Shown here: piece by piece, positions 18,974 through 53,948 of the stretch
Numbering within the stretch: the stretch's first letter is position 1
How the letters are laid out: every line of letters begins with the position of its first letter
DNA from: an uncultured Pseudomonadota bacterium
Lineage (GTDB): Bacteria; Pseudomonadota; Alphaproteobacteria; Rs-D84
DNA length: 64,000 bases
NCBI GenBank assembly: GCA_902774285.1
Contig: CACYHO010000002.1
Span: 91,023 to 155,022, forward strand
Direction: 5' to 3'
Program-made: the position numbers and the translations under genes
The notes under the pieces: generated by a model
What the model saw: only the letters and a program-made list of their open reading frames with translations
The model's database searches: none
Told to the model about the DNA's origin: nothing

Positions 18974-19003
18974 CAAAAAAGGGCCGAAAGCCCTTTTTGT
19001 TTT
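18974..19003 (+). terminator. bidirectional terminator
   Basis: AAAAAGGGC / GCCCTTTTT around CGAAA. It ends the 16217-18973 operon on the plus strand. On the minus strand it stands directly after the ACCA end of the tRNA-tail element. Confidence 0.85.
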
Positions 19004-19022
19004 TGGTGGATGTGGGCGGACT
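19003..19022 (-). repeat. exact copy of the tRNA-Val 3' end
   Basis: The 20 bases here are identical to 19121-19140, the T-loop-to-CCA end of tRNA-Val, at an offset of 118 bp. The copy begins inside the T loop, the usual crossover core for elements that integrate into tRNA genes. Confidence 0.85.
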
Positions 19023-19079
19023 GGTCTTTCGACCTCACTTCGTAGTCGAACCGCCAGACCATCGGTTCTTCGTCCACCC
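19004..19079 (-). other. tRNA-tail element behind tRNA-Val, 76 nt
   Basis: On the minus strand this 76-nt segment begins GGGTGGACGAAGAACC and ends with the tRNA-Val 3' sequence including CCA. Its T-arm 5' half (GGCGGTTCGA) is also present but is separated from GTCCGCC by a 24-nt insertion that can form hairpins (TTCGAC/GTCGAA; TGGTCT/AGACCA). The two ends pair, 19014-19021 with 19072-19079, because the first 16 nt are a degenerate inverted copy of the tail. It is flanked by terminators on both sides. Function is unknown; a non-autonomous integrated element or a small RNA are the main options. Confidence 0.6.
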
Positions 19080-19087
19080 AAAAAGAT

Positions 19088-19118
19088 AAAAAAATAGGGC
19101 GATTGCCCCATTTTTTAT
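19088..19118 (-). terminator. terminator of tRNA-Val
   Basis: On the minus strand, TGGGGC / GCCCTA around AATC is followed by T7, shortly after the tRNA CCA end. Confidence 0.75.
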
Positions 19119-19121
19119 CCT

Positions 19122-19198
19122 TGGTGGATGTGGGCGGACTCGAACCGCCGACCCCCACGATGTGAACGTGGTGCTCTAACCAACTGAGCCACACATCC
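19122..19198 (-). tRNA. tRNA-Val(CAC)
   Basis: The cloverleaf is complete. The acceptor stem is GGATGTG/CACATCC, the anticodon stem is CCACG/CGTGG with loop TTCACAT (anticodon CAC, reading GTG), and the T arm is GGCGG-TTCGAGT-CCGCC. CCA is encoded. It is last in a minus-strand cluster Leu-Ala-Leu-Val. Confidence 0.95.
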
Positions 19199-53712: not shown

Positions 53713-53736
53713 TTTGTGGCGCGCCCAGCAGGACTC
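53706..53736 (-). repeat. copy of the tRNA-Arg 3' end plus flank
   Basis: The 31 bases match 53861-53891 with one mismatch, at an offset of 155 bp. They cover the T loop to CCA of tRNA-Arg and 10 bases of the 3' flank. Confidence 0.85.
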
Positions 53737-53829
53737 CCTCGGCATAAAATGCCTACGGGGCAATCGTAACGGTTTCGGTGCGCTTTGCTGCCAAAACCTA
53801 CTGCTTGTCGAAGGTTCTCGTCCTGGGGC
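53717..53829 (-). other. tRNA-tail element behind tRNA-Arg, about 113 nt
   Basis: On the minus strand it begins GCCCCAGGACGAGAACC, a degenerate inverted copy of the tail, and ends with the exact tRNA-Arg 3' end. The ends pair (53723-53734 with 53820-53829). Inside lie a 5-6 bp hairpin (GGCAT/ATGCC) and GGTTTCGG/CCAAAACC. It shares the start motif GGACGA(A)GAACC and a TTCGAC block with the tRNA-Val element. Terminators stand on both sides. Confidence 0.6.
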
Positions 53830-53837
53830 TTACAACA

Positions 53838-53871: not shown

Positions 53872-53948
53872 TGGCGCGCCCAGCAGGACTCGAACCTGCA
53901 ACCCACAGATTAGAAATCTGTTGCTCTATCCAATTGAGCCATGGGCGC
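53872..53948 (-). tRNA. tRNA-Arg(TCT)
   Basis: Acceptor GCGCCCA/TGGGCGC, anticodon stem ACAGA/TCTGT with loop TTTCTAA (TCT, codon AGA), T arm GCAGG-TTCGAGT-CCTGC, discriminator G and encoded CCA. Confidence 0.95.

Follow-up and report, generated by a model that had tools for sequence, protein, structure and literature searches.

Rfam lists RtT RNA as a small family (RF00391); it was first described behind tRNA-Tyr of Escherichia coli, and to our knowledge its role is not settled. Integrative elements that target tRNA genes with cores in the T-loop carry a direct repeat of the tRNA 3' end that starts in the T-loop; T-loop position A58 marks a common integrase crossover region. Tandem GA in RtT RNA has been reported (PMC7657543), and two RtT-family RNAs of Actinobacillus pleuropneumoniae, Arrc20 and Arrc21, lie near Asn and Lys tRNA genes and gave northern signals (PMC4986893). 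Read directly, the E. coli tyrT region shows a tRNA, an inverted tail arm, a tandem-GA hairpin, and a 19-nt tail. RtT matches were present in 46 of 398 Pseudomonadota genomes; the loci examined follow Tyr, Pro, Lys, Ser, or Gln tRNAs, and most of them end in tail copies of 18 to 19 nt.

The window (the whole 64,000-nucleotide stretch of DNA analyzed here) contains tRNA-Val(CAC), a terminator, a 76-nt segment, and a second terminator on the minus strand, all where the original prediction had placed them (Table 1). The exact 20-bp copy of the tRNA 3' end noted there resolves into 19 nt, positions 58 to 76, plus an A after CCA that is common to the tRNA and its tail copy. The segment also contains the T-arm 5' half GGTTCGAC and the hairpin insertion, and its ends do pair: what had been called a degenerate inverted tail is one strand of an 8-bp helix between GGGUGGAC (19079-19072) and GUCCGCCC (19021-19014), with one G.U pair. 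The inverted 5' arm GGGTGGAC pairs with GTCCGCCC, and its duplex with the unit's own tail (-16.8 kcal/mol) surpasses those formed with the 20 other tRNA tails compared; folded alone, the 76-nt segment has modest stability only (z -1.8). The unit thus follows the RtT layout, being downstream of a tRNA on the same strand with a 19-nt CCA tail, an arm-tail helix, and a tandem-GA hairpin, in which GAGAACC...GGUUCGA is represented by GAAGAACC...GGTTCGAC (19071-19045). In genome G561 (locus L195) the same tRNA-Val(CAC) is followed by a full-length type C unit, and in G030 (L010) by a similarly reduced one with one tail mismatch. By this comparison the flagged unit is a reduced type C that kept its arm, core, and exact tail and lost its inner modules; it may be a dying unit. 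A two-piece (permuted) tmRNA was considered for the locus and rejected, the match (18.9 bits, E 0.4) lying mostly over the tRNA itself. The unit behind tRNA-Arg(TCT) in the same window, which the original prediction did not include, is full length and a better example than the tRNA-Val unit.

TABLE 1 Features of the two units in the window and of beta units elsewhere in the genome (contig:position)
Feature	Location	Strand	Basis or context
tRNA-Val (CAC), host gene	19122..19198	-	ARAGORN; Rfam tRNA 69.4 bits
Source of the copied tail, final 19 nt of tRNA-Val(CAC)	19140-19122	-	
Intrinsic-terminator-like hairpin separating tRNA-Val from the unit	19080..19120	-	Read from sequence; -17.9 kcal/mol, z -5.0
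76-nt segment	19079-19003	-	Sequence
P1 5' arm GGGTGGAC, partner of the tail copy	19072..19079	-	Sequence; duplex energy
P2 core GAAGAACC-loop-GGTTCGAC: apparent corrupted inverted T-arm, then direct T-arm 5' half	19045..19071	-	Sequence
T-arm 5' half GGTTCGAC	19052-19045	-	Sequence
Putative interior-module remnant (reduced type C)	19023..19044	-	Compared with L195 (full-length) and L010 (reduced)
Tail copy AGTCCGCCCACATCCACCA, tRNA nt 58-76 (A58 to CCA), exact	19004..19022	-	Sequence
Terminator-like hairpin 3' of the unit	about 18999-18973	-	Sequence and fold
tRNA-Arg (TCT), host of the second unit in the window	53872..53948	-	ARAGORN
Full-length type A unit behind tRNA-Arg(TCT)	53717..53836	-	R1 98 bits, E 2.1e-26
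20-nt tRNA-Arg tail copy ending that type A unit	53736-53717	-	Tail comparison
Beta unit, Pro-TGG	C4:8312-8510		Own genome
Beta unit, Gln-CTG	C4:36108-36290		Own genome
Beta unit, Ser-TGA, tail decayed	C1:390706-390900		Own genome
Beta unit, Arg-ACG, tail decayed	C1:531900-532166		Own genome

The genome to which the window belongs measures 855 kb and is about 77% complete; all 45 of its tRNA genes were checked, to at most 600 nt downstream. The suspicion that further tRNA genes might be trailed by their own 3' end was borne out: seven of the 45 (Lys-CTT, Tyr, one Met, Gly-CCC, Val-CAC, Arg-TCT, and Arg-CCG) have an exact own-tail copy of at least 19 nt (19 to 20 nt), 99 to 164 nt downstream, and none of the 45 has an own-tail copy upstream. 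All seven copies begin at A58 or one nucleotide earlier. When the tails of other tRNAs were used as a control, none of 1952 comparisons within the genome reached 14 nt. Four more tRNAs (His, Gly-GCC, Pro-TGG, and Gln-CTG) have own-tail copies of 12 to 15 nt, and units with decayed tails stand behind two more Met genes, Ser-GCT, Ser-TGA, and Arg-ACG; overall, between one-quarter and one-third of the genome's tRNA genes have a unit, the share being roughly a third once the decayed tails are counted. Chance and assembly artifact as sources of the tail copies are ruled out by this census together with many independent assemblies.

In these and related loci, a typical unit comes after the terminator of its tRNA, opens with an inverted, imperfect copy of that tRNA's 3' end, and continues with a tandem-GA hairpin, one or two structured modules, an exact 19-nt tail with CCA, and a terminator. 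Of 156 genomes of the genus, 74 contain the core GACGA(A)GAACC...GGTTCG, compared with 1 for the reversed control, and 110 of 120 distinct core sites in the genus have a same-strand tRNA fewer than 400 nt upstream. The core reads as a corrupted inverted T-arm (GACTCGAACC to GACGAGAACC), and behind tRNA-Gly-CCC of the own genome (C2:36931-37004) the perfect inverted T-arm GAATCGAACCC is kept in the 5' arm, which suggests that units originated as an inverted plus a direct copy of the tRNA 3' end. The tail copy matches whichever tRNA stands upstream; for tRNA-Lys(CTT), in a set selected by tail match, five different tRNA tails are each matched by their unit. Across the family, arms pair better with their own tail than with other tails (-15.7 versus -11.4 kcal/mol; 0 of 1000 permutations). 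Arm complementarity was nevertheless rejected as the whole reason for tail identity, since in many units a large share of the acceptor part is unpaired yet exact. The unit behind tRNA-His at L372 likewise holds a perfect inverted T-arm in its 5' arm.

Full-length units are a covarying structured RNA family. In the type A fold, 89.5% of cells over 22 units are paired, and double-change cells number 69, compared with 21 ± 3 after shuffling (0 of 500 shuffles), a signal that collapses when the partner is slid. The RNAalifold alignment energy of 25 units is -41, versus -8 ± 3 for shuffled columns; default RNAalifold on A1 gave weak structure, and the structure from a run with RIBOSUM was adopted and then tested for covariation. 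The inner modules of the new units include AGUA...GUUACG and CCCGCAG...CGAGGG hairpins. A second module type, which we call beta, is a long hairpin (AAAACGGATAT...ATAGAGTTTTT) that sits between an arm formed by the inverted host tail and a tail copy of 12 to 15 nt; it is present in 41 of 151 genomes of the genus and in none of the control. Four beta units of the own genome are listed in Table 1, and the interiors of the Pro and Gln units are nearly identical.

R1, a covariance model of the new family whose E-values are rough, picked up nine strong copies in the own genome. Within the bacterial family it matched 169 of 183 genomes (92%), covering 11 of 13 genera with up to 17 matches per genome. 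These are metagenome-assembled genomes, and scans of more than 40 genomes were run under stricter filters. In a class sample of 289 genomes only one genome outside the family was matched by R1, and its unit likewise stands behind a tRNA (Ser-GGA). A tRNA lies just upstream of 63 of 68 R1 hits, and 48 of those 63 have no mismatch in 19 nt; the hits were found without use of the tail, but 14 of the source loci had earlier been chosen by tail. A genome-wide scan with the core pattern gave mostly chance matches outside gut alphaproteobacteria, Kangiella excepted. In Kangiella aquimarina DSM 16071, a gammaproteobacterium, tRNA-Asp is followed by a terminator and then by a unit, about 260 nt long, that has this core and copies 25 nt of the tail (L058, 3801-4190). 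We found no general description of tRNA-tail repeats in the literature searched, to which subscription journals mostly did not belong, and an earlier account may exist.

Like RtT RNA, the new units stand behind a tRNA on the same strand, have a 5' arm complementary to the tail and a hairpin with tandem GA (GAUGAGAACC...GGUUCGA in RtT, GACGAGAACC...GGTTCGAC here), end in the terminal 19 nt of the tRNA with CCA, and occur in tandem copies. They differ from it in having other inner modules and a strong terminator after the tRNA, in standing behind most tRNA kinds, and in not being recognized by the Rfam model. RF00391 had no match in the own genome or in the other alphaproteobacteria listed, and against the new units the Rfam model gave no match even at E up to 1, leaving the gathering cutoff unreached. 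R1, for its part, matches the RtT positions in most RtT loci of gamma- and betaproteobacteria (E 7.5e-7 to 0.2), and there is no reverse match. Because the Rfam model fails on the new units, the case for shared ancestry with RtT depends on the weaker R1 search and on architecture. Arrc20 and Arrc21 share with the units the tie of an RtT homologue to tRNA genes (Asn and Lys), but are gammaproteobacterial and recognized by Rfam. We conclude that the new units are of the same kind as RtT and form a distinct variant of it, not a member of RF00391 as curated.

On this evidence, it is likely that the flagged segment is a reduced member of an RtT-like RNA family linked to tRNA tails, whose units would be expressed by read-through, folding, and tRNA-like trimming. 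The suggestion of a tRNA-like small RNA in the original prediction comes close to this: the intact relatives are indeed structured RNAs that covary as a family and have their tail in common with the host tRNA. The space between terminator and unit is too short for a promoter, so the unit would have to be transcribed from the tRNA gene by read-through of the tRNA terminator; for the same reason, and given that this terminator is strong, very little RNA might be made. In the folded RNA the 5' arm would pair with the unit's tail copy, and tRNA-processing enzymes would then trim the tRNA-like 3' end to leave a small RNA ending in CCA, as we infer from the anatomy. Precedents for the RNA step are E. 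coli rtT and the northern-positive RtT RNAs of Actinobacillus (PMC4986893). The shared tail would let tRNA-processing enzymes treat the unit as a tRNA end, and it would also give the arm two possible partners, the tail of the unit and that of the tRNA. We regard it as unlikely that the units are, across the genome, companion RNAs each specific to its tRNA, whose arm switches between the tRNA tail and its own copy, so that read-through RNA controls the maturation or abundance of that tRNA; the exact host tail would then be kept because the arm switches pairing.

A sober alternative to such a tRNA-specific switch is recombination that homogenizes repeats: gene conversion between the tRNA and its direct repeat, or excision and reduplication, would keep the tail identical in place of selection on the RNA. 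Repeats at these loci do recombine, as seen from identical tandem copies and from the identical terminators behind both tails at Met and Gly-GCC, but the terminators and interiors around the exact 19 nt mostly differ, which would leave a very short stretch of homology, and the inner modules covary as RNA. We therefore hold this explanation of tail identity to be rather doubtful, if a little less so than the switch. A better chance, still short of even, goes to the reading that the flagged unit is a nonfunctional former type C, its interior mostly deleted and the rest held by inertia, which is compatible with the family explanation. It is 76 nt long, compared with about 120 to 150 nt, and is not matched by R1; the full-length relative in G561 and the similarly reduced one in G030 also fit this reading. 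Decay by inertia sits less well with the exact tail copy, the arm-tail helix kept with a G.U pair, the terminators on both sides, and the recurrence of the reduced form in two species.

The original prediction had also proposed a non-autonomous, tRNA-targeted mobile unit. Such units would enter the T-loop of tRNA genes through a trans-acting enzyme, the tail copy being the repeated attachment core. The boundary at A58 fits this, and the comparison of empty and filled sites that the prediction invited shows that both exist: G043 (L013) has an empty site between the same flanking genes as G000 (upstream protein 80% identical, downstream 31%, E 5e-56). The same tRNA-Val(CAC) is followed by type A, type B, type C, or no unit, depending on the species, and two or three identical tandem units, tail and terminator included, stand behind one tRNA at L357 (G025), L354 (G555), and L349 (G577), probably as a result of recent array growth; the near-identical beta interiors of Pro and Gln also speak for mobility. 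Together, empty sites, module replacement, and identical tandem copies indicate that some gain, loss, and movement happened. However, for 30 of 63 units the nearest relative of the interior sits behind the same tRNA of another genome (expected, 4.6), and for only 5 of 63 behind a different tRNA of the same genome (expected, 3.4), which is no significant excess; recent copying within a genome is not supported by this count. Units have therefore been passed on mostly in place, and this speaks against a mobile element that is active. The direct tRNA 3'-end repeat starting in the T-loop is shared with tRNA-targeted integrative elements; the units differ from these in their structured RNA interior, inverted tail arm, and tail fitting any host tRNA, and at 76 to 150 bp they have no integrase or cargo gene, which 76 bp could not hold. 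The interiors are constrained as RNA structure, and no fixed attachment site explains tails and inverted arms fitted to the host; one and the same interior is also found behind tRNAs whose tails differ, a pattern not expected from an integrase restricted to a single fixed site. The core pattern had no match in a viral contig collection, on which ground a viral origin was rejected as well. As an explanation of the family, mobile units are improbable: the active process in the proposal finds no support, and some gain, loss, and movement remain of it.

The RtT layout is a major genome feature here, far larger and more varied than in E. coli, and the hundreds of natural variants are available for comparative work. 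They spell out the tail rule (nt 58 to 76) and pose the question of why an exact host-tRNA tail is kept despite a fast-changing interior. At two further loci, L129 and L134, both around position 1500, a tail plus unit stands with no recognizable tRNA upstream; the stretch common to them (GGCAAGAAGAT...GGAATAATGTG-like) might represent a third type of module, arranged in an array.
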